23,051 nucleotides of DNA from a virus. The stretch covers positions 1-23,051 of the IMG/VR virus record IMGVR_UViG_3300020021_000049; one strand, written 5' to 3'. The translations under genes and the position numbers were made by a program. The notes below the pieces were generated by a model that ran no database searches, was not told where the DNA came from, and saw nothing but the letters and a program-made list of their open reading frames with translations. Positions 5,384 through 21,764 of the stretch are shown one piece after another. How positions within the stretch are numbered: position 1 is the first letter of the stretch; each line of letters begins with the position of its first letter.

Positions 5384-5696
5384 TGGATGTTCCCTTCTTG
5401 GCAGCCGGGCGCGCCGGCGTCTTCGGTGCCGCCTTGACGGCTTTGGCTGGTACCTTCCTTGCCGGTGCGGCGGGCTCGGTGATCGCCACCGGCACCGACT
5501 CGTCGGCTGGTGGGGTGCTTACGGCTGGTTCGCTGATCTGGATCTCGCCGGACTCCCCGCCCACCGTCAGTTCAACGGGGGCGGGAAGCCGGTCGAGGAT
5601 CTGGCCGAGCAGTTCATTGGTGGCGTCCTGCCGCTGGCACAACGCCACCATGTACTCGTCACCACGATGGACGGGTTTCGGCAGGGCGCCACCCAT
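5376..5696 (-). CDS. Small head-module protein with Lys/Ala/Pro-rich tail
   Basis: A 106-aa protein starting at the ATG 1 nt after the capsid gene stop (TGA-C-ATG). Residues 14-40 are helical (DEYMVALCQRQDATNELLGQILDRL), possibly an oligomerising helix. The middle is acidic and Pro-rich. The last 30 residues are a Lys/Ala/Pro-rich, histone H1-like tail (KVPAKAVKAAPKTPARPAAKK in part) that could contact DNA or an acidic capsid surface. I do not recognise a named family. The position after the capsid gene suggests a minor head or head-tail component. Confidence 0.7.
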   Translation of the reverse strand: MGGALPKPVHRGDEYMVALCQRQDATNELLGQILDRLPAPVELTVGGESGEIQISEPAVSTPPADESVPVAITEPAAPARKVPAKAVKAAPKTPARPAAKKGTSNG

Positions 5697-5697
5697 G

Positions 5698-6852
5698 TCA
5701 GCTACCCGCGCCAGACGATGCAACCGTCATTTTCGGATCCACAAACGTGCCCCCGAAAACGTGTTGGATCTTCTTCTCCGACGCCGAAGTGTCGAAGGAG
5801 AACATCTCCGGCGCGCCGCCACCGATACGACGCGAGTCCGGGATCTTCTCGAACAGTGCCGGCGCCTCATAGCCGCGCAGACGACCGAACTCGAGCGCCG
5901 GGCGGGGACCGTTCGGGTCGGCGAACAGCCACCACGACGTGTCGGCGTTCGCCGACGTCGCGATCGAGTCGATCCAGTAGTTGGTATTGACGGTCAGGTT
6001 CGCGGCGACACCGTTACCGCTGATGATCGTCACGTCGCCGTTGGCACCGACTGACCGGTACTCGGTGGCGTGGATGATCTCGTTGGCGGTGAGCGAGAGA
6101 CCCGTGCCGACAACGAGCTGGATGGCCTTGACCTGGATCGGGTTGCCGTTGGCGTCCTTGCGCTTCATCAGCACCGTGATCGCGGCCTGCAGGTTCGTCC
6201 GTGACAGCACCGGGTTGCCGGACAGGATGTTGTCGTTGCCGACGGTGTAGTTGTCGGCGTTCGGTCCGCTGGCGTCACAGATCAGGTTGGTGACGAACGC
6301 TTCCTCGGAGTCGCGCGCCGAGTCGGCGAGGTCCTGAGGCATCCGCATGAACGCACTCAGGTCGTCGTTGATCATCGCTTCGAAGCTGAGCGCGAACCCG
6401 GCTTCGTACTTCTGGACCGCGTACGTGAACTCGGCGTCGTCCATGCCGCGGCGCTCGTGCTCGGCGAGTTCCGCCACCGGCTTCAGCAGGCCGCGGACGC
6501 CGGAGGTGGCGAACCGCTTGACGGTGCGGAAGTCGTTGACCGTGGCCGCCCGGGCATAGTTCTGCCACGTCGGTGTGGTCGCCATGTACGCGCCGTACAG
6601 CTGGCGGTCCAGGGAGTCGGCGAACAGGAGCGGGAAGTCCGCCGTCGACATGGCCTCACGGAACTCGTGGAGGCCACGGCGACCGTTGCGGATATCGACG
6701 AGGAACTGGTGGGATTCCTTGACGCGCCGATCCCATTCGGGACGGGCGGCGCGGCGTGGGTCGGCGATCTGCGTGAAGCCGCCGAACATTTCGGCGATGG
6801 CGACGTTGCTGACGTTCGACACCGACGGGGTGAACTGTGAAGTCTCGGTCAT
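5698..6852 (-). CDS. Major capsid protein (Mu gpT-like / HK97 fold)
   Basis: A 384-aa protein at the expected place after the protease-scaffold and decoration genes. Features typical of gpT-like capsid proteins are FPLLFADSLDRQLYGAY near residue 75, PTWQNYARAATVNDFRTVKRF, and the following KYEAGFALSFEAMINDDL segment around residues 150-170, then NLICDASGPNADNYTVGN. The C-terminal half is beta-rich and ends in WWLFADPNGPRPALEFGRLRG-type strands. The start ATG at 6852 has GAGGAG upstream. It assembles the icosahedral shell with the DUF2190 protein as likely decoration. Confidence 0.92.
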   Translation of the reverse strand: MTETSQFTPSVSNVSNVAIAEMFGGFTQIADPRRAARPEWDRRVKESHQFLVDIRNGRRGLHEFREAMSTADFPLLFADSLDRQLYGAYMATTPTWQNYARAATVNDFRTVKRFATSGVRGLLKPVAELAEHERRGMDDAEFTYAVQKYEAGFALSFEAMINDDLSAFMRMPQDLADSARDSEEAFVTNLICDASGPNADNYTVGNDNILSGNPVLSRTNLQAAITVLMKRKDANGNPIQVKAIQLVVGTGLSLTANEIIHATEYRSVGANGDVTIISGNGVAANLTVNTNYWIDSIATSANADTSWWLFADPNGPRPALEFGRLRGYEAPALFEKIPDSRRIGGGAPEMFSFDTSASEKKIQHVFGGTFVDPKMTVASSGAGS

Positions 6853-7235: not shown

Positions 7236-7760
7236 TTACGGCCGGCCAGCGGCGGCGAGCTTGGCGGCCTCCGGCGACATGCCACCGGTGACGTAGGACT
7301 CGGCGAGCGACGCAACAACCGTCGCGTCCGATGCGGTGGACGTTGATGTGGTGCCGCCGAGACCGGCAACGCGACCGACGCCGGCGGCTTCGAGTGCCTC
7401 GGCGATCTCGGCCTCCTTCGCCGTGATCGCGGCCGTCATGGCCTCACGGAACTTCGGCTCGTCGAGGACGCTGGCCTCCGTCATCGGCAGCGTCGCGGTG
7501 ACGCTTTCAATGACCTGCGCCCGAGCGGCCGGGGTGCTGATCTGCGATCCGGTCAGGAGTTCGGTGGCGATCGGACGCGATGCCTCAACTGCGGCGTAGC
7601 GGGCCAGCTTCGCGTCGGCCTCGGTCGCGCGCCGCTCCGACTCGACAGCCTTGGTTTCGGCCGCCACGCGGGCGGTCTGTGCTTCGGTGACGGCGGTCGA
7701 CACCGCGGTGTCCGTCGTCCCCGCCGCGTCCGGCGTGGTGCCGGTTGGTGAATCAGCCAT
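7236..7760 (-). CDS. Internal in-frame scaffold product (putative)
   Basis: An ATG at 7760, in frame with the protease-scaffold gene (codon 429), is preceded by GGAGAGG with 5-nt spacing. This is as good a ribosome site as any in the window. Starting here gives a 174-aa protein that is exactly the helical scaffold domain. The arrangement is like lambda C/Nu3, where the scaffold is made separately in excess from a nested start. Made from the same frame, it would end at the same stop. Confidence 0.65.
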   Translation of the reverse strand: MADSPTGTTPDAAGTTDTAVSTAVTEAQTARVAAETKAVESERRATEADAKLARYAAVEASRPIATELLTGSQISTPAARAQVIESVTATLPMTEASVLDEPKFREAMTAAITAKEAEIAEALEAAGVGRVAGLGGTTSTSTASDATVVASLAESYVTGGMSPEAAKLAAAGRP

Positions 7761-9044
7761 GGTGGCCTCTCCATTCGGTTGGGTGGAAACGGTCGGCGGG
7801 GCGCCGTCCGCTACAGGTGGGGTGGCCTCCACGGCCGGGATCTCAACCGGCGCGGACTCGGTCACATTGGTGTCCGTGTCGTCATCGCCGTCGGTGTCCG
7901 CCGGTGCCTGAGCCGATGCGGGTACAGGCACGTACTCGGTCCGGGGCACAACCTCGACACGCTCGTCGGCAAGGGTCGCGACCGTGGCCGCATCACCGGT
8001 CGTCAACGTGTACGACTGCTGCCATGTGGTCCGGGACTGGTTGTCGGAGACCGCATACCAGACCATGTTCTGGTCCGGGTCGAAGTCGCAGACGTAGATC
8101 CACTGGGTGACATCGCCGTCATCGCCGTACGCGGTTCGCAGCGCGGTGTCGAGCGCCGACTGGGTGTCGTTGGTGCTGGCCTCGCGCAGGCTTGCCGACT
8201 CGGTGGTCGACGTGCTCGCCGTCGGGTCTTGGTAAATCCCGCGGGTGGCGAGTTGCGGTGCCTCGGCTTGAAGCTTCGCCGTGAACGCCTTCAGCGCGTC
8301 GCCGACTGCGTTCGACAGGGTGATCCGCTCATCGCGGGTCAACTTGCCGGCGCCGTACATGTCATCGGCGAGGCTCGTGAAGTCGCTGTGTATCCGCGAC
8401 TCAAACCAGGCTTCGATGTTCTGGGCTTCGACCAGTTGGGCGGCTCGTGCCGATTCGAGAAGCGACACGAGCTTGCCCCCAGCACCAGCGGCCGTAACGA
8501 AGTCGACGGACTCGGCGGAGACGATCGACGTAATGAGCGGGCCGCGCTGACCGGGCGGCTGCTTGCCGTACTCGGCAGTGCCGGATGCGCGGATGCTCAT
8601 GCCGATCGACTCGGCCATCGGCGCGACCAGCGGGATGAAGAGCGGGTACACCTCGATGTCGGCGTAGAGACCGTCGCTCTCGTAGATCGCATCGGTAACC
8701 AGGCGCCCGGCGAGATCATGGATTGACCGCTCGGGACGCTCGACCTCTTCCGTCCCGGATGGATGGTCCCCGTAAATAGGCAGGCCAGCGTGAAAAACGT
8801 TGGCCTCGACGGTCTGTTGCAACATCGAGGCTGGGTAATATCCGGTACTGCCCTGGACGTCGCCGGCGATTAGCTTGGCGCGGTAGCGACGCACGCCTTC
8901 GGTGGTCATCAGCGCCGAGGCGGTTGCTTCGGCGATCTGCACTGCTTGACTGGTTGGCAGCTCGGCGACGGCGGTTGCCGATTCGCGTAGACGCACCCGG
9001 CTATTCATACGATCCGGCGCCCGAAGGCGAGTCTTGTTCGACAC
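7236..9044 (-). CDS. Capsid maturation protease fused to scaffold
   Basis: A 602-aa protein. Residues about 50-200 are the prohead protease: YRAKLIAGDVQGSTGYY, IYGDHPS (His 94), RSIHDLAGRL, then IGMSIRASG (Ser 150 or 154 as likely nucleophile) and SAESVDFVTAAGAGGKL. A middle domain (about 295-375) has WIYVCDFDPDQNMVWYAVSD. Residues from about 429 are an Ala/Glu-rich helical scaffold domain with coiled-coil character. The start is a GTG at 9044 with GAAGGAGG upstream. A strong internal ribosome site and ATG at 7760 would also give the scaffold part alone. A terminator lies just upstream of this gene. Confidence 0.9.
   Translation of the reverse strand: MSNKTRLRAPDRMNSRVRLRESATAVAELPTSQAVQIAEATASALMTTEGVRRYRAKLIAGDVQGSTGYYPASMLQQTVEANVFHAGLPIYGDHPSGTEEVERPERSIHDLAGRLVTDAIYESDGLYADIEVYPLFIPLVAPMAESIGMSIRASGTAEYGKQPPGQRGPLITSIVSAESVDFVTAAGAGGKLVSLLESARAAQLVEAQNIEAWFESRIHSDFTSLADDMYGAGKLTRDERITLSNAVGDALKAFTAKLQAEAPQLATRGIYQDPTASTSTTESASLREASTNDTQSALDTALRTAYGDDGDVTQWIYVCDFDPDQNMVWYAVSDNQSRTTWQQSYTLTTGDAATVATLADERVEVVPRTEYVPVPASAQAPADTDGDDDTDTNVTESAPVEIPAVEATPPVADGAPPTVSTQPNGEATMADSPTGTTPDAAGTTDTAVSTAVTEAQTARVAAETKAVESERRATEADAKLARYAAVEASRPIATELLTGSQISTPAARAQVIESVTATLPMTEASVLDEPKFREAMTAAITAKEAEIAEALEAAGVGRVAGLGGTTSTSTASDATVVASLAESYVTGGMSPEAAKLAAAGRP
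7766..7772 (-). promoter_or_regulatory. Internal ribosome binding site for the scaffold
   Basis: GGAGAGG sits 5 nt before an in-frame ATG at 7760, inside the protease-scaffold gene at the domain boundary. Such a strong purine-rich site within a coding region at a domain junction is unlikely to be accidental. Confidence 0.6.
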
Positions 9045-9065: not shown

Positions 9066-9095
9066 AAAAAGCCCCGACCGCGTGGTCGGGGCTTT
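9066..9095 (-). terminator. Strong rho-independent terminator inside the head operon
   Basis: A perfect 12-bp stem (AAAGCCCCGACC, 9068-9079, with 9084-9095) with a GCGT loop is followed on the minus strand by five U residues (9066-9070). It lies between the small gene at 9148-9414 and the protease gene. It should stop or reduce read-through into the protease and capsid genes unless an antiterminator acts or a promoter lies further downstream. Confidence 0.88.
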
Positions 9096-9147: not shown

Positions 9148-9414
9148 CTATTCGGTGATGCGGGCGCCCGTCACCGGGTCAAGGCCCATGATCTTGCGAG
9201 CCGCCTTCTGGAACGAGTCCTCGCGGGCCGCGGTCGCATCGACGTCGGCGTTGTGCTGGCCGTAATCCGCACCATGACCGGCCGCATCCGGGTCGAAGGC
9301 CGCCGTCTTGACCGCGCCCCGCGCCCACGTTTGGTGCAGGTTGGCGAGCGCGACGAGACGGTCGCGGCGCTCCGGGCTGATCGGAGTGGCGACCAGCTTG
9401 ATCTTCGGAGTCAC
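9148..9414 (-). CDS. Small hypothetical protein overlapping the MuF gene
   Basis: An 88-aa protein starting at a GTG that overlaps the MuF stop (GTGA), so it is translationally coupled. The sequence is hydrophilic with no recognised domain: TPISPERRDRLVALANLH near the start, then an acidic-polar middle and KAARKIMGLDPVTGARITE at the end. The only large overlapping neighbour is MuF with its GNAT-like C-terminus, so this could be a partner or protective protein of that domain. It could also be an unrelated virion-module gene. It is followed by a terminator. Confidence 0.72.
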   Translation of the reverse strand: MTPKIKLVATPISPERRDRLVALANLHQTWARGAVKTAAFDPDAAGHGADYGQHNADVDATAAREDSFQKAARKIMGLDPVTGARITE

Positions 9415-11285
9415 AGCGGTTTCACCCCATCCCAACTCGAGCCCAACATCGTAGCCTTCCCGATCCACGTATCGTCCCGGGTTGCTCCGGACCAACGACC
9501 GGCCTGTCCGAGACGGTACGCCGTCGGATAGTTCGGATCACCGAACCGGTACGTCTTGGCGTCTTCGATGATAGAGCGCGCTGCGGTGAGTTGATCCTCG
9601 ATGCGGGCAAGCTTGGCAGTTCTCGCCGCCGTTGAGCCTTCCGTTGCGATCTCGGTACGCAGATCCGCGGCATCGTTGTCGTATGCGAAGACCTGGACGT
9701 CGAGTCGGTAGAGCGTCTTCCTCGCCTCGTCGGCGGTCGCGAAGTCGTATCCCGACCTGGACCAGGCATATCCGCCGATGGAGATGTTGGCGTTGAGTTC
9801 GATGCGGGCCACACCGGATTCGCGATACCAGTCTTCGAGGTGGGCGTTGAACGCCTCCGCGAAGCCCTGACCCTGCACGTCCGAATCGAGTCGGAGCAGG
9901 GCGTGGTAGGCGACCAGGGATTGATCGCTGCCGCGGCCCAGTGCCCGGGTGAACTCGCCGACCTGCGTGCCTTCGCTGTCGGTGATGTCGCCGGAGATCA
10001 GTGTCAACCCGTCGTCGTCGAATGCCTCGGTCACCTTCGTGGTGAGGCTGGCGAACGTGCCGTCCATGACCTGAGCGGCGGCCTCTTTCGTCGGTGCAGC
10101 AAGTAGCTCGGCGGCGAGCGGGCGCCCGCTTTCGCTGCCGACCTTCGCGACGGGTGCTGCGGCTGTCCGGCGTGGCAGCGGAGTCGGTCTTGCGGTGACA
10201 TCAGCCGCTGCCGTTGACGCCGGTTTCGCGATGCGTTCCAGATCCTTGAGGGATGCCGGTGCATACGACGGCCGCCACCCGCTGGTCGTGCGCAGCCGCG
10301 GGATGTCATCCCAGGTGATCCGACCGGACTTCAGCAGGTTCAGCCGGCCGGGGCCGAGCATCTGCGCCTGCGTCGCTGCGGACTGTTGGCTGAACCATTT
10401 CCGCGCGTCGGGGACGGTGCTCGGGGGCTCTGGAGTTTTGATCCCGAGTTCGGACCACGGTTTGACGATCGGTACGCGTGCGCATCTTCCCGACTGGTGA
10501 TCTTGGGGTCCCGGTTCGGATAGGTCGTGAACCGAACCGTTCATAGCTATACAACTCGGACATGTCCTATTCGAGAAGGTGCAAAGCCACAGCCAGCCAC
10601 TCAGCACGTCCGAGTTCGAGTGGTGGGCGTACTGCGATGTGGTGCGGTAGGCGTCGAGCACCTCAGTCCGGGCGATGTTCGTAGCCCTGGCCAAGCCGCC
10701 ATTGAAGCCTTCCTCCAGCCCTGCCACCATCCGTGATGCGGCGGTGTTCGGGTTGTCGCCGAGCGCGACGCCGCGCACCAACTCCCGGTGCATGGCATCG
10801 ACGGCCTCACCGGACAGCGCGTTGGTCTGCGAGGTGATCTGCTGTGCGGTCCGGGCGACGATGATGTCCAACGACGTCGGGTTGATCCGGGCCGCGAACT
10901 TTGCTGCAGCCGCCGCGCGTTGAGCGACCGGCAGTTGCGAGGCGACGATCCCCGGCTCGGCATCAGCGGTCGACTGGACCGCGTTGCCGGCGGCGTCGGT
11001 GATCGTGACCCCGGCGCGGGTGGCGAGTTCCTGCAGCGTTGACTGGGCCGCTTCCATCGTCCGGTACAGGCGGTCGATGCGGTTCAGTTCGTACGCTGCC
11101 GGCCACCGGCCGAGTTGTGCCGCCAACGCCATGGCATCGGCGACTGCGGTGTTCATGTCGGCGGAGAGGGTGGCCCACGCCTTGACCCAGGCTGCGGCCA
11201 GGGCGCGGGTTGCGTCGTCTGCTTCAGTGCCGATCGTGGTCCGGAGTTGACTACCGAGGAGCAGCGTCGGTCGGCGGATCGCCAC
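9411..11285 (-). CDS. MuF-like minor head protein with GNAT-like C-terminal domain
   Basis: A 624-aa protein. The MuF (SPP1 gp7-like) domain occupies about residues 130-275. It includes RTEVLDAYR and the Cys/His motif C242-P-S-C245, H253, H263, C268. These proteins sit at the portal vertex inside the head. After a Pro/Ala-rich linker (about 350-385), residues about 385-530 contain VQGQGFAEAFN (GNAT motif A type, Q-G-Q-G at 471-474), then YRESGVARIELNAN and GGYAWSRSGYDF, typical of an acetyltransferase-like fold. Residues 535-575 are coiled coil. MuF proteins often carry variable C-terminal effector domains (literature on MuF polymorphic toxins). Its stop overlaps the next gene. Confidence 0.88.
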   Translation of the reverse strand: MAIRRPTLLLGSQLRTTIGTEADDATRALAAAWVKAWATLSADMNTAVADAMALAAQLGRWPAAYELNRIDRLYRTMEAAQSTLQELATRAGVTITDAAGNAVQSTADAEPGIVASQLPVAQRAAAAAKFAARINPTSLDIIVARTAQQITSQTNALSGEAVDAMHRELVRGVALGDNPNTAASRMVAGLEEGFNGGLARATNIARTEVLDAYRTTSQYAHHSNSDVLSGWLWLCTFSNRTCPSCIAMNGSVHDLSEPGPQDHQSGRCARVPIVKPWSELGIKTPEPPSTVPDARKWFSQQSAATQAQMLGPGRLNLLKSGRITWDDIPRLRTTSGWRPSYAPASLKDLERIAKPASTAAADVTARPTPLPRRTAAAPVAKVGSESGRPLAAELLAAPTKEAAAQVMDGTFASLTTKVTEAFDDDGLTLISGDITDSEGTQVGEFTRALGRGSDQSLVAYHALLRLDSDVQGQGFAEAFNAHLEDWYRESGVARIELNANISIGGYAWSRSGYDFATADEARKTLYRLDVQVFAYDNDAADLRTEIATEGSTAARTAKLARIEDQLTAARSIIEDAKTYRFGDPNYPTAYRLGQAGRWSGATRDDTWIGKATMLGSSWDGVKPL

Positions 11286-11287
11286 GG

Positions 11288-12253
11288 TCAGCTCCCCTTG
11301 TCGACCGGTGCCCCGTCTCCCGGCTGTGCACCGGTATCCCCGTCGTCCGTGGTGTCATCGCCGGGATCAGCCATCGGACCGGTTCCGGCCGTTGCCGGGT
11401 CGGCGCCGGCTTTCGCCAATGCGGCGAGCTGGGAGCCTGGTCCTAGCGGTGCACCTTTCGGCCAGATGAAGTTCCCGTCGTCGTCGGTCATCTGCTCGAC
11501 TATCTCGTCGGCACCGCGGACTCCGAATGCGGTGAGGATGAGACGCAGGATGATTTCCGGCGGGACGGTGCCGGTCGAGTTTGCTTTCTGGATCGCGTCG
11601 GCCAACTGGTCGACGGACATGTCTTGCAGGTTCGGCCACACAATGTCGATGGTGTCGACGGTGTCACCGGCAAGGGTGATGTATTCGCGGCCGGATGCGG
11701 GGTCACGGCGGATGGTGCCTTTCAGGCTGCCTCGCGGTGCCCGGACTGCTTCGCCGATGACGTACTGCATCAGTGGTAGCAGGAAGTCCGACGTCCACAG
11801 TTCGCGGCGTTGGGACATGGCCAACTCGGTCGGCTGGTCCAACGTTTCCGCTGTCGCCCGCGCCCCGGTTTGACCGGGGTCGGACAGCAGCATCGTGACC
11901 GGCACATCGAGGGCGGAGGCGATCATTGTTGCGATCGGTCGGCCGGAGTCGGCGTCGATCGTCGCCCCGGACTTCGAGATCGCTTCAAGAGCAACATCGG
12001 GCGGGATGATCGCAGCGGCACCGGCAGCGTCGGGTTCACCGTGGATCGAACGGCCCGGGCGGCGTTCCAGCGCCTTGCGGATCCCGGCCGCCTTGTTGCC
12101 CGGTGCGGTGGCTTTCCACGCGTACCGCGACAGGGAGCGCATGAGACGCGCCCAGTCTTCGAGGAACTCCTTGTACGCCTTCGCCCAGTCAACAGCGGCA
12201 TACGCGTCGGGGACACCGAACTTCCAGCCCGGTATTACCAGGCGACAGGCCAC
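11288..12253 (-). pseudogene. Portal protein, C-terminal part (frame broken)
   Basis: This frame holds the C-terminal two thirds of the portal. It begins with homology at GWKFGVPDAYAAVDWAKAYKEF (in part, first codons near 12238), followed by LEDWARLMRSLSRYAWK, TMIASALDVPVTMLLSDPGQTG and ALAMSQRREL-type portal features, then an acidic Asp/Gly/Pro tail. The frame is -1 relative to the N-terminal part. It has no ATG near the junction; the nearest possible restart is a GTG at 12253, just before the upstream TAA stop. The open frame extends to 12385 but that part is antisense-like shadow sequence. Residues expected between the two parts are missing (see finding). Confidence 0.8.
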
Positions 12254-12957
12254 TGCCCGAACTGGCGGATCCGTGCCGTCGGCCGGTAACCCAACGCCGG
12301 GTAATACCGCTCCAACGTTTCCGTGGACGGCAGGGCGGTTGACGGGTCGATGGTGGTCTTCACCCAGCGGCGGTGATAAAACCACGGCTCGGAGTCGTCC
12401 TCCGGGTTGCAGATGATGTCGACGATCTGATCCGCCGGGATGACCCGTGTCGACACCTGACCGGCAAGCGGTCGGGTGAAGCAGGAGACGTAGACGTTGC
12501 CGTCGGTGCCGAGCGCGTGCTCGAGTTGGTCGCGGGCGGACGGGCCCGTGACCGCGCGGAGGTTGCCGGGATCGCTGAGGAAATCGGCAATGACGGCCTG
12601 GACGTCCTGCTCGCCATCCTTACGCCCGTTCGCACGGGCGGTGATTTCGACGCCCTGACCCCACACATAGGCGGATCTGATGGCCAACCCGCGTTTTACC
12701 AGCGGGTTCGCGATCCCGTAGAGACGGCAGACGGCACGCATTTGGCGCATGCCCTCGGGTGTGAACTCCATCTCCGAGAGGGCAACAAGCCGCATCCATC
12801 CCGGGTCCAGCAGGGCGCGCTCGAGTTCGGTCAGCGACTCCTTCAGGAACGCCTCGTTGTTGCTGACCTCGCGGAGCTCAGCCCGCAACTCCTCGCGCAG
12901 AGGTGCCGTGCCGGAGATCGCCTCGGCGATACGGCGGACGGGGGCGAGGACATCCAC
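12235..12957 (-). pseudogene. Portal protein, N-terminal part (ends at premature TAA)
   Basis: A 240-aa open frame starting at GTG 12957 after the large terminase. It encodes the N-terminal portal region: RMLVALSEMEF-like and LYGIANPLVKRGLAIRSAYVWGQGVEI, then DFLSDPGNLRAVTGPSA, LGTDGNVYVSCF and a beta-rich clip-proximal part ending ARIRQFGQWPVAW followed by TAA. In related portals the segment after this Trp continues into the strand leading to WKFG. Here it stops and the continuation is in another frame. The two parts add to about 555 residues, a normal portal length. The gene is the dodecameric DNA gate at the head vertex if functional. Confidence 0.83.
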
Positions 12958-12972
12958 AAGGACACCCCCGGA

Positions 12973-14481
12973 TCAGTACCGTGCCCCGATGGAAAAGTCT
13001 GCGTCTTCGTCGTCTTCGACAACCCCGTCAGGCACGATCAGATCCGCGACAGCGGTCAGCATCAGCGCATCGGCCCTGTCCGGCGACGGGAGTTTGCGTT
13101 TCTTCATGTCGTCCTTGGATTCGATCTGCACCTGACCGCGCGACGTGTACTTGTAGCGGATGGCACCCAGTTGGGCGGCCAACTCGTCGTCGTCCGGATC
13201 GATGTCGATGTCGTCCTGCTCGAACCGTTCACGCAAAGCCCAGTACCACTCGGCGCGTGCGTTGAGGTAGTGCTCGTTATCAACGGCGCCGGCGCCGGCC
13301 TGCATGTCCACAACGTCGTAGCCCTGCTCGGCGAGTTGATCGACCACGCCGCCGCCGACGCCTACACCATCGACGCGGATCTCATCGGCGCCATGCTTGC
13401 GCGCTGCGACAATGACCTGACCGGTCGTCTCCGTGGTGGCCTGCTTGTGGTTGTCGGCGACGATCCGGGCAACCGGTCCGCGGCGGAGCATGATCACGGA
13501 TCGGTCGGCGCCGAACCTCGCAACGTCGACGCCGAGGATGGCCCACGGGCCGGGCTCGAGCGTCCGAGCTTGTGCGGCGAGGATCCATGCCGGGTCGATG
13601 AGGACGTCTTCGCCCACGTCCGGGAAGATCCCGCGGACCTTCGCGGTGAACAGTGGCGACTCAATGCCCCACCGGTGGATGCGTTCAGCAACCCACATCG
13701 GCGACAGCAGCATCGGCCGTAGATCATCGGGAACAAACTCGGTCGACGGGCCGAGACCCAACTTGTCGAACAGTTCGGCAAGCAAGGGATGCTCGGCGAT
13801 GGCTTCGGCGGTGAAGTTCGGTGTCTCCAATCCGTCGATCCGGATGACGTTCCAGCCGGAGCCGGGCTGGCAGATTTTGGCGAAGTGAGTGGTGGCCGAG
13901 TCCGGGTTCCCGATCGCCAGCACGCGCGCGTTCTCGTTGGTGGCGAGGGCGTCGACAGCATCGAACAAGGTTCGGGGGACGCCACCGGCTTCATCCACGA
14001 CGATCAGCGGATACCGGGAGTGGATGCCCTGAAACGCGGCCTGATCCTCATCTGCGGGCTTACGCCCGTAGCCGATCGGTTCGCAGCCGTCGAGCTTCCA
14101 CTCCGGCACCGAGCCGGACGTGATGTAACCCTGCAACCCGCCCTTACGGTGAGCACGGCGGATCTCACGCCACAGAATGGCGGACACCTGCGCTGCGGTC
14201 GGTGCGGTGGTGACGGCGAATGCTTCACCGGCGTCGTGGACGGAAAGCCACCACGAAACGAGTCGGCTCGCTGACCATGACTTTCCCGAGTCGTGGCAGC
14301 TTTGCACGGCCGTGTAGCGGTTGTCCCGGATTGACTCCGCGATCTCCCGCTGCTTGGACCACATGTGCTCGCCGAGTTTGTCCCGCACCCAACCGACCGG
14401 ATCATTCAGGTACGGGTCCGGCTGCTTCGGTTGGAACGAGTCGACCGCGACCTGCCACGCCATTTCCATCAGCGTCGGCAT
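12973..14481 (-). CDS. terL: Terminase large subunit
   Basis: A 502-aa ATPase-nuclease that packages DNA. The ATPase domain has a Walker A motif SCHDSGKS (residues 61-68), Walker B LIVVDEAGG (D163, E164), and the coupling segment near RVLAIGNPDS. The nuclease domain has GVDVARFGADRS (D319), RVDGVGVGGG (D371) and SPDRADAL (D468/D471) as likely metal ligands. The start ATG at 14481 has GAGGTG about 4 nt upstream; the open frame upstream has 11 more codons without a better site. The portal follows after 15 nt. Confidence 0.95.
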   Translation of the reverse strand: MPTLMEMAWQVAVDSFQPKQPDPYLNDPVGWVRDKLGEHMWSKQREIAESIRDNRYTAVQSCHDSGKSWSASRLVSWWLSVHDAGEAFAVTTAPTAAQVSAILWREIRRAHRKGGLQGYITSGSVPEWKLDGCEPIGYGRKPADEDQAAFQGIHSRYPLIVVDEAGGVPRTLFDAVDALATNENARVLAIGNPDSATTHFAKICQPGSGWNVIRIDGLETPNFTAEAIAEHPLLAELFDKLGLGPSTEFVPDDLRPMLLSPMWVAERIHRWGIESPLFTAKVRGIFPDVGEDVLIDPAWILAAQARTLEPGPWAILGVDVARFGADRSVIMLRRGPVARIVADNHKQATTETTGQVIVAARKHGADEIRVDGVGVGGGVVDQLAEQGYDVVDMQAGAGAVDNEHYLNARAEWYWALRERFEQDDIDIDPDDDELAAQLGAIRYKYTSRGQVQIESKDDMKKRKLPSPDRADALMLTAVADLIVPDGVVEDDEDADFSIGARY

Positions 14482-14551
14482 GGTCACCTCGTCGAGGGGT
14501 GAAGCGGCCCGCAACCGGGGAGGCGATCGCAGGGCCGCAGTCGATCAGGTG

Positions 14552-14983
14552 TTACTCGGCGGGTGCGGGCGGAGCAACCGGCGTCGCAGCGTCGGTGAGC
14601 GCCTGCACGGCCGCGTCGAGCGGGCCCTGCGCGGCGGCGAGTTGCGCGCTGACGGCGACGAGACCGGATGTGTCGACGCCAGCCGCCTCGAGCGTGGCAA
14701 TCTCGGCCTCGAGCGCAGTGACGCCTGCGCCGATCGCAGCAACCTGAGTGCCGACGTCACCGATGACGGTGTTGATCTGCGCGACGGCCGCGTCGATGTC
14801 CTCTTGCTGGCTCATGATCATTCCCTCTTTCGTGATGATGGTGCGCAGGGTGCGCTTGATGCCGGTGAGGTCTTCCTCGACTGCGGCGATTCGGGTGTCG
14901 AGTGCGTGCAGGCAGTGCAGGACCGCTTCGATCGGGTCCTTGTGGCCGGCGCAGTTGACGACGATGCAGACGAAGATGGTCAC
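14552..14983 (-). CDS. Coiled-coil protein coupled to cysteine peptidase
   Basis: A 143-aa protein whose GTG start overlaps the peptidase stop (GTGA). Residues 1-55 contain two or three Cys/His and a helix (RIAAVEEDLTGIKRTLRTI). Residues from 57 (MSQQEDIDAAVAQINTVI) form a long Ala/Glu/Val-rich coiled coil ending in an APVAPPAPAE type Pro-rich tail. A second good start, ATG 14815 with GAGGG 7 nt upstream, would give just the 87-aa coiled-coil part. It may join the two halves as a fused product, or both products may be made. Small coiled-coil proteins like the second part are common in actinophage genomes. Function unknown. Confidence 0.72.
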   Translation of the reverse strand: MTIFVCIVVNCAGHKDPIEAVLHCLHALDTRIAAVEEDLTGIKRTLRTIITKEGMIMSQQEDIDAAVAQINTVIGDVGTQVAAIGAGVTALEAEIATLEAAGVDTSGLVAVSAQLAAAQGPLDAAVQALTDAATPVAPPAPAE

Positions 14984-15720
14984 GTCGCGATCTCGGCTGA
15001 TGGCGTCGGCGCGGGCTGCGACAGTGGGGTGAGGATGGTGACATCGCCCTGCATGTCGAGGAGTTTGCCGAGATCGACGAACGTCAGATACGCACGACCC
15101 TTGACACCAAACGACTCGTTCCACGAGTTGTCGATCCACACCCGCTCATTGACGGCGTCGATCTCCCGGGACTCGATCTCATGCCCACCGGCGACTTTCC
15201 CGCCGAGACGCAACCGGCCGTCAGCGTCGGGGCTGAACATCTTCTGAAGCCACGACACACCGAGCATCACCGGCGTCTTGCTGAGCGCCTTCAGGCAGTC
15301 GTCGAGGGAGAACGTGTGCTGCATGCCGGAGATCAGACCCTTGGCCTTGAGCACCTTCGCGATGGTCAGGCCGGAGCTTCCGTCATCATTCGGCGGATAT
15401 GGGCCGTTGCCGTCTTCCTGCTCGGCGTCGGAGTACAGGTCGAGCGCCCCGGCCTCGTCGAAGGTGAAGGGCAGCTTCGGGATCGTGAGCAGCGTCGAGT
15501 AGTACGGGTCCGTCGCCAGGGTGCCGATACCGGCATTGGCTGTGCATGACCCGACCTGGCCCTGGTCGAGGATCGGGATGTGCCGTTCGTGCACCGCAGA
15601 CTCGATCTTCAGGTCGGTGGTGTCGAAGCGGTAGAGCTTCGAGCGCGAGTCGTGGTGGATGTGCCGGTTGAGCCTGCGATCGGAACTGGGAATCCGCTCA
15701 TGGTGGACGGTGTGGGCCAT
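14980..15720 (-). CDS. Papain-like (C1 family) cysteine peptidase
   Basis: A 246-aa protein with the papain-type layout: oxyanion Gln and catalytic Cys in LDQGQVGSC (Q53 or Q55, C59), His 180 in GGHEI and Asn 198 in WIDNSWNESFG. The block GQVGSCTANAG and the DNSW motif are characteristic of C1A-like bacterial and phage peptidases. There is no signal peptide. The N-terminus is His/Arg rich. The gene is coupled on both sides: its start overlaps the upstream stop by one base (TAATG) and its stop overlaps the downstream start. It could act in lysis, virion maturation or entry. Which of these is not clear; it lies upstream of the packaging genes. Confidence 0.85.
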   Translation of the reverse strand: MAHTVHHERIPSSDRRLNRHIHHDSRSKLYRFDTTDLKIESAVHERHIPILDQGQVGSCTANAGIGTLATDPYYSTLLTIPKLPFTFDEAGALDLYSDAEQEDGNGPYPPNDDGSSGLTIAKVLKAKGLISGMQHTFSLDDCLKALSKTPVMLGVSWLQKMFSPDADGRLRLGGKVAGGHEIESREIDAVNERVWIDNSWNESFGVKGRAYLTFVDLGKLLDMQGDVTILTPLSQPAPTPSAEIAT

Positions 15721-20304: not shown

Positions 20305-20505
20305 TCACACGTATTGCCCGATCGAATGACCAGTGCTGGTGGTGGCGCGTTCGATCCATCCGAACTTGCACCGGTTGCATGCCCGGCTCAGGTATGAGCC
20401 GAGGCCTTCGAGCGTCTGCCATACCGTCGAGGCGCCGACGTTGCCGCACATCCGGCAGGTCGGCTGCGCACCGGTGTACGGCGGGGCGACCAGCGTGGCT
20501 TTCAC
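20305..20505 (-). CDS. Small double-CxxC zinc-ribbon protein
   Basis: A 66-aa protein with CRMC (residues 17-20) and CNRC (43-46), a classic zinc ribbon. The GTG start overlaps the upstream stop as GTGA. Nothing else identifies it. It may bind nucleic acid. Confidence 0.7.
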   Translation of the reverse strand: MKATLVAPPYTGAQPTCRMCGNVGASTVWQTLEGLGSYLSRACNRCKFGWIERATTSTGHSIGQYV

Positions 20506-21668
20506 TCGGTGATCTTGGGCTCGTAATGCCGTCCGGGAATCCGTTCATAGACGTCGCTGGACCCGTCGGTGAAGTTGACGGCGAACTCACCGTTGCTGCT
20601 CAGCGCCGAGATCGAGCCGACCTTCCGCGTATTGTCGACATGCAGCACGATCGGCGTGGTGGCCAAGTCCAGATCACGGATCGCCTCCCGTAGGGCAGCC
20701 ATCCGGCTGGCGGAATGGGCGCCTTGACTCATCCACTCAAGCTCGGCCACCGCCCGGGCCGCTTCGACTACCGGCGCCTTCTGGCGGTTGGCGGCCTGGA
20801 AGTCGCGGAGCGCGGCCCCGGCGCTGGCGTATGCCTTCTCGACGATGGTCAGCCTCGCGTTCTTGCGCTCGGCCTTCGCCCGCGCCTTGTCCAGTTTGCG
20901 GCTGAGATCGTCGGTCAGATCCTCGGCGGCTTTGGTGGCGGCACATGCCTCGCGTAGCGGGTCGGCGAACTTCTCGGCCTCAACGAGTAGGCGGCCCGAA
21001 TCGGTCCGCGCGCTGTCGCGATCGGCAATCAACTCCCGCACCAACTCGGCCGCATCGCCGAAGTAGTCCTCACCGTCAGAGACTTTGCCGAGCGCGCCGG
21101 CTATCTCGTAGGCGAGCGCATTCAGGGTGACCGAGTGCTGACGTAGCCTCTCGACCTCGGCGACCGGATAGACGCCGCCGGTAGCTTCGGCGAGCACCGG
21201 CCAGTCCACACCGTGCACCCGCGCCGTATGAGGCTGCGTGCGAACCATCGCGACCGGACCGACTGCTGGGTACTGGTCGACGATCTCAGACCATCCCGAA
21301 ACGTCCGGCAGCGCCTCACGCTGACGGACCGAATGTTGAATCAAGACATTGGCAGCGCGGGCGGCATCAGTTCCGAAGATCTGCAACAGCACGGTGTCGC
21401 GAAGGACGTCCGTCGCACCACTGAAGACCCGATCCAACTCGAGCGCGAACCTGAAGACACCAACGAACGCGTCATCGTCATCGACGAAGCGCAAGCCAAG
21501 CTGGCGGATCCAGTTCTCGGCGATGCTGTAGGGAATGAACACGACCCGCTCAAGGACGCGGATGACCGTCGCCGCGTCGGATTCAACGATCCCGGCCGCA
21601 GCGAAGATCACCGTCAACTCGGCCTCGGTCTGATCGGAGAATTTGGATAGATCACCAATTACCGGCAT
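20502..21668 (-). CDS. Hypothetical coiled-coil protein (388 aa)
   Basis: A 388-aa protein starting at ATG 21668, with GAGAGG 6 nt upstream. The N-terminal third is helical and acidic (SDQTEAELTVIF, RVLERVVFIPYSIAENW). The middle, from about 200 to 330, is a coiled coil (DDLSRKLDKARAKAERKNARL). The C-terminal 60 residues are beta-rich (ISALSSNGEFAVNFTDGSSDVYERI), possibly a small SH3-like or Tudor-like fold. I do not recognise it. It is the largest protein of the accessory block, with the zinc-ribbon gene coupled downstream. Confidence 0.62.
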   Translation of the reverse strand: MPVIGDLSKFSDQTEAELTVIFAAAGIVESDAATVIRVLERVVFIPYSIAENWIRQLGLRFVDDDDAFVGVFRFALELDRVFSGATDVLRDTVLLQIFGTDAARAANVLIQHSVRQREALPDVSGWSEIVDQYPAVGPVAMVRTQPHTARVHGVDWPVLAEATGGVYPVAEVERLRQHSVTLNALAYEIAGALGKVSDGEDYFGDAAELVRELIADRDSARTDSGRLLVEAEKFADPLREACAATKAAEDLTDDLSRKLDKARAKAERKNARLTIVEKAYASAGAALRDFQAANRQKAPVVEAARAVAELEWMSQGAHSASRMAALREAIRDLDLATTPIVLHVDNTRKVGSISALSSNGEFAVNFTDGSSDVYERIPGRHYEPKITE

Positions 21669-21764
21669 CAAACACCTCTCGTTTCGTCAAGATCGTTCTT
21701 GCCCGTCGGTGAGAACCTGGCACTCGAACTGGCCAGTAACATACGTATCTGCAGGTCAGCCGTC

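Follow-up and report, generated by a model that had tools for sequence, protein, structure and literature searches.

The virus record analysed here (the window, 23,051 bases, with its main genes on the minus strand) carries a portal gene whose reading frame is broken. We think it somewhat likely that a quasipalindrome template-switch mutation broke this gene, recently and in one replication accident, in an actinobacterial siphophage-like element or prophage. Eight bases stand at the break where relatives have a conserved coding stretch. They repeat a neighbouring sequence in inverted orientation and so point to a template switch at a quasipalindrome and not to a plain deletion. Events of this kind are already known; the source of the eight bases had escaped the initial annotation.

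The portal gene and its neighbourhood

The broken gene lies among the head genes of the window, which are listed below from the terminase onward. Connector and tail genes come after the capsid gene.

12973-14514, minus strand: terminase large subunit (phrog_2, E = 1.3e-33), intact, with no frame break compared with relatives
12957-11288, minus strand: portal gene as a whole, a 5' part followed by a 3' part in the -1 frame
12235-12957, minus strand: portal 5' part, 240 codons with a GTG start, ending ...FGQWPVAW and then TAA (12237-12235)
11288-12238, minus strand: portal 3' part, in the -1 frame, starting VIPGWKFGVPDAY..., with its stop at 11288 and homology from GWKFG at 12229
9411-11285, minus strand: MuF-like head morphogenesis protein (PF04233, E = 3.7e-7; phrog_241), intact
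7236-9044, minus strand: head maturation protease (phrog_15531, E = 1.1e-26), intact
7220-6867, minus strand: decoration protein
5698-6852, minus strand: major capsid protein (PF25209, E = 5.3e-37), intact

Both halves of the gene match the phrog_10963 portal profile (503 positions), the 5' part over positions 34-222 (E = 2.9e-39) and the 3' part over positions 247-502 (E = 7.9e-61). Combined, they belong to this family by sequence along nearly its whole length, but one continuous portal frame is absent from the window. Neither half was matched in a Pfam search, and a PDB sequence search with the portal profile returned no match. As the initial annotation had stated, the N-terminal part stops at TAA (12235-12237) right after the Trp of PVAW, and from 12238 the remainder is read in the -1 frame. 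The same annotation gave a spacing of 11 nt for the two Trp codons (12240-12238 and 12226-12224) and saw no slippery heptamer at the frame change; we agree on both points, the second by eye over 12225-12260. Programmed -1 frameshifting was rejected: such a heptamer is lacking, residues have been lost, the two Trp codons are ancestral and the arrangement occurs in no relative. The neighbouring genes had been described as intact, and comparison with relatives likewise gave no clear break elsewhere in the comparable regions.

Several other features of the window were recorded. Upstream of the terminase, a peptidase gene (14980-15720, minus strand; phrog_16701, E = 7e-44) encodes the motifs QGQVGSCTANA, GGHEIE and DNSWNES, which by eye resemble a papain-type Cys/His/Asn set. 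The C-terminal part of the MuF-like protein (9411-11285) is long and weakly resembles an acetyltransferase (GNAT; E = 0.03). The protein also matches phrog_27103 and phrog_25452, both of unknown function; judged from these similarities, it may carry an extra enzymatic domain. Far upstream of the head genes, the product of a minus-strand gene at 20502-21671 (389 residues) weakly matches tape-measure families (E = 5e-9). Strong inverted repeats at 1255-1282, 5633-5693 and about 9068-9087 lie between minus-strand genes or at their edges, and are probably transcription terminators.

Comparison with related portals

Close relatives of this portal occur in viral contigs and prophages of Micromonospora, Actinomadura, Dactylosporangium, Nocardioides and Arthrobacter. 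All 94 of the 94 relatives with a match spanning the break point keep a continuous frame across it, and nearly all of them have a WDSPVIHLAVNRPLGW-type stretch there. The break is therefore derived. The initial annotation had raised the prospect that many related elements might share the arrangement, and none of these 94 does.

The nearest relative is L002, a 4.8-kb viral contig with an intact portal of 573 residues. Amino acid identity to this portal is 83 per cent for the 5' part and 76 per cent for the 3' part (L002 residues 254-573). At the break point L002 has about thirteen further residues (DSPVIHLAVNRPL), so that 39 nt (thirteen codons) in L002 correspond to 8 nt in the window; this net loss of 31 nt explains the -1 frame, with the precise extent of the deletion for the window's own lineage estimated through a relative that differs at about 20 per cent of amino acids and many synonymous sites. 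The thirteen residues fall within the roughly ten to fourteen that had been proposed as missing, and the replacement of 39 nt by 8 nt accords with the earlier preference for a small deletion over a 1-nt error. Residues P243 and H246 are kept by 90 per cent or more of the relatives. Both Trp codons flanking the gap are also found in L002 and in many other relatives.

The terminase of L002 (L002:707-2362) is only 64 per cent alike to that of the window, against 78-83 per cent for the portal, and its N-terminus is different. By this sequence comparison, a mosaic exchange beside the portal gene is probable.

Origin of the eight bases

The sequences around the break can be divided into the following parts.

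12230-12237, minus strand: filler TAATACCG, 8 nt, starting with the stop codon and replacing 39 nt of L002
12230-12244, minus strand: 3' arm of an inverted repeat, CGCCTGGTAATACCG, composed of 7 native nt also found in L002 (12244-12238) and then the eight of the filler
12295-12309, minus strand: 5' arm of the inverted repeat, CGGTATTACCCGGCG, made up of the anchor CCCGGCG (12301-12295) and the copied template (12309-12302)

The filler is the exact reverse complement of 12302-12309, about 60 bases away. Neither the filler nor its reverse complement is repeated elsewhere on the window's coding strand: each is present a single time, the reverse complement at 12309-12302. The two 15-nt arms pair at fourteen of their fifteen positions, and in RNA and DNA folding they pair with each other, within a hairpin around the break of -50.6 kcal/mol (z = -2.4). 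Native codons for the conserved ERYYPA, kept in L002, contain the 5' arm. The imperfect palindrome GGTAATACC reported in the initial annotation does exist, but it represents only one arm, whose partner lies at 12309-12295, and the full repeat far exceeds what chance would give. The deletion proposed there holds as a description of the outcome, but its cause was most likely a template switch: the eight bases left at the break reproduce, in inverted orientation, a nearby stretch upstream.

A shorter repeat, CGCCTGG/CCCGGCG, was present before the event, with six of its seven positions paired; CGCCTGG is also found in L002. Within 200 nt on either side, no 7-nt anchor other than CCCGGCG has fewer than two mismatches, and CCCGGCG predicts the filler letter for letter. 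Even if all forty-two two-base anchors are allowed, the chance of predicting the filler is 42/4^8, or about 6e-4. The template-switch signature is found at three of 22,611 positions in the window, compared with 0.3 in codon shuffles. The other two positions are intergenic or sit at the 5' margin of an ORF that was called mechanically, and are plausibly terminator hairpins. For random 10-mers from the window, an inverted copy within 100 nt was found in 0.05 per cent of draws, while random 8-mers have a match within 100 nt in 0.5-2 per cent, in either orientation.

These observations suggest how the lesion could have formed. The end of a growing strand (...CGCCTGG) would have annealed to CCCGGCG, an imperfect complement lying some 60 nt upstream, and the polymerase would then have copied the eight bases of the filler from this wrong template before the strand returned to its original template further downstream. 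In this way about 39 nt (thirteen codons, encoding a conserved strand) would have been exchanged for 8 nt that bring a leading stop codon and a -1 shift. We infer both the order of these steps and that they took place in vivo. The window contains the marks by which quasipalindrome mutations are recognized, i.e. an exact inverted copy and an imperfect repeat at the switch point that predicts the new bases.

Age of the lesion

The two portal halves give dN/dS values against L002 of 0.125 and 0.143, i.e. strong purifying selection. Lineage-specific changes in the window and in L002 number three versus five in one half and four versus five in the other, with no excess in the window. We found no other clear break on the coding strand in regions comparable with relatives. 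Most of the other listed splits are antisense shadow frames; the remainder are a lone weak query near 8880 and two near 13060, the latter resembling an ordinary gene boundary. Taken together, the low dN/dS, the lack of a lineage-specific excess and the lack of another clear break mean that the lesion is either very recent or an artefact. An old pseudogene was rejected on the dN/dS and the lineage-specific changes, and a generally low-quality contig on the absence of any other well-supported coding-strand break in the comparable regions. Among the searchable viral contigs, from which records close to the window's own may be hidden, no other carries this junction, and plasmid records gave no match.

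Alternative explanations

An artefact could have arisen in vitro, through a template switch in this hairpin-prone stretch during whole-genome or library amplification or through an assembler choosing a minority molecule, in which case the real portal would be intact. A switch in vitro would leave an identical mark, and amplification enzymes are able to make inverted joins via displaced 3' ends; among chimeras formed in MDA, over 85 per cent are inverted (PMC1855051). The intact state of the rest of the comparable region and the purifying selection are those of a living phage, and the junction is missing from every other searchable viral contig, all of which fits this explanation. On the other hand, MDA chimeras consist of two stretches joined in inverted orientation, whereas here two switches fall within 8 nt and the strand then resumes its original direction, and the consensus of a metagenome contig normally outvotes a rare molecule. 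We regard an in vitro origin as unlikely, though a serious candidate. A plain deletion is improbable. Here a loss in one or two events, bounded by short direct matches (e.g. GG), would have left TAATACCG as a diverged remnant of GTG AAC CGG.. (VNRP), with the repeat a coincidence. It is true that GGTAATACCGG can be aligned with GGTGAACCGG of L002 and that the downstream frame reads V there, but the alignment requires a second loss of 6 nt as well as the very rare codons GTA and ATA (six and three, respectively, of 2,885 codons), and it leaves to chance a 14/15 inverted repeat anchored at the breakpoint.

Two further readings would make the arrangement functional, and we consider each of them highly improbable. 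A natural two-piece portal could restart its second half at GTG 12253 or ATG 12142, start codons that are indeed present in the second frame. Neither has a recognizable ribosome-binding site upstream, no relative has a split portal, and the break removes a strand beside a long helix and does not fall within a linker. Programmed ribosome bypassing of the kind known from T4 gene 60 would instead take off at TGG, before an immediate stop and a stable hairpin, and land on the TGG 11 nt further on. The outward geometry for this is present, with UGG-UAA, a matched UGG and a hairpin around the site. In T4 gene 60, ribosomes leave at a GGA codon just ahead of a UAG inside a stem-loop and land on GGA (PMC11194080). 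The matched codons and the stop are thus found in the window, but a non-coding gap whose omission restores the normal protein is not: a genuine bypass skips additional sequence, while here sequence is missing, and the product of a hop would lack fourteen L002 residues, P243 and H246 among them. The matched pair was inherited, since each Trp codon is ancestral; the UGG-UAA...UGG arrangement occurs in no relative; and the inverted filler accounts for the hairpin. We give no more credence to a hairpin-aided 11-nt hop, or other recoding that skips the stop, yielding a shortened but working portal. In that case a single template switch would have created a bypassing element.

Predicted consequences for the virion

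The portal is the ring through which DNA enters the capsid and is an essential virion protein. An AlphaFold2 model of the L002 portal has a portal fold, with the lambda portal (8k39) as its best fold-search match (E = 2.8e-12). In this model the residues lost from the window carry a strand (244-248, high confidence), which is followed by a long helix (263-289). Judged by the model, a 240-residue fragment lacks this helix and all that comes later in the chain, a region that would correspond, from general portal topology, to the stem, clip and crown.

If the template-switch reading is right, translation would give this N-terminal fragment, and there would be no portal ring, DNA packaging or virions unless an intact copy were present. 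About 330 of the 573 portal residues are out of frame, and virion formation is probably abolished, provided that the sequence is correct. The claim in the initial annotation that the element is defective as a phage follows on the same proviso, but goes further than a single 23-kb contig can demonstrate.

The window would thus offer a small and well-resolved case in which one template switch disables an essential virion gene. It also indicates that the look of recoding (a stop, matched codons and a hairpin) can arise by mutation alone, which calls for caution in scans for programmed frameshifting or bypassing in metagenomic phages. It adds little on portals themselves, and it does not seem to represent a new way of reading genes.

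Comparison with known systems

The portal halves cover a family, phrog_10963, that includes the portals of Brevibacterium phage LuckyBarnes, Arthrobacter phage TripleJ and Micromonospora and Actinomadura prophages. Elements of this family have the same gene order as the window (terminase, portal, MuF, protease, capsid). All of the relatives compared have an intact portal, in contrast to the broken frame in the window.

T4 gene 60 resembles the window in its stop after the take-off codon, its matched landing codon and its hairpin. It differs in that coding sequence is gone from the window, where the matched codons are ancestral and the arrangement is not conserved.

Yeast CYC1 and phage T4 rIIB provided the first examples of quasipalindrome template-switch mutations, which are also known from E. 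coli thyA (PMC7202029). In those events, as here, an imperfect repeat is completed, the new bases are the other arm inverted and the gene is frameshifted. Unlike in those cases, the ancestor of the window is inferred, about 50 nt lie between the arms and the return to the original template skipped about 31 nt net. Template-switch events often leave perfect inverted repeats, and the four-point model of Loytynoja and Goldman describes their course (PMC7954356). In its terms, the portal sequence would run from L to 1, continue inverted from 2 to 3 (the 8 nt) and resume from 4 to R, with a new inverted repeat as the result. That model was applied to ape genomes with a pair HMM (PMC7954356), whereas our fit to the window is informal, the nearest relative being too diverged, and yields the same succession of segments.
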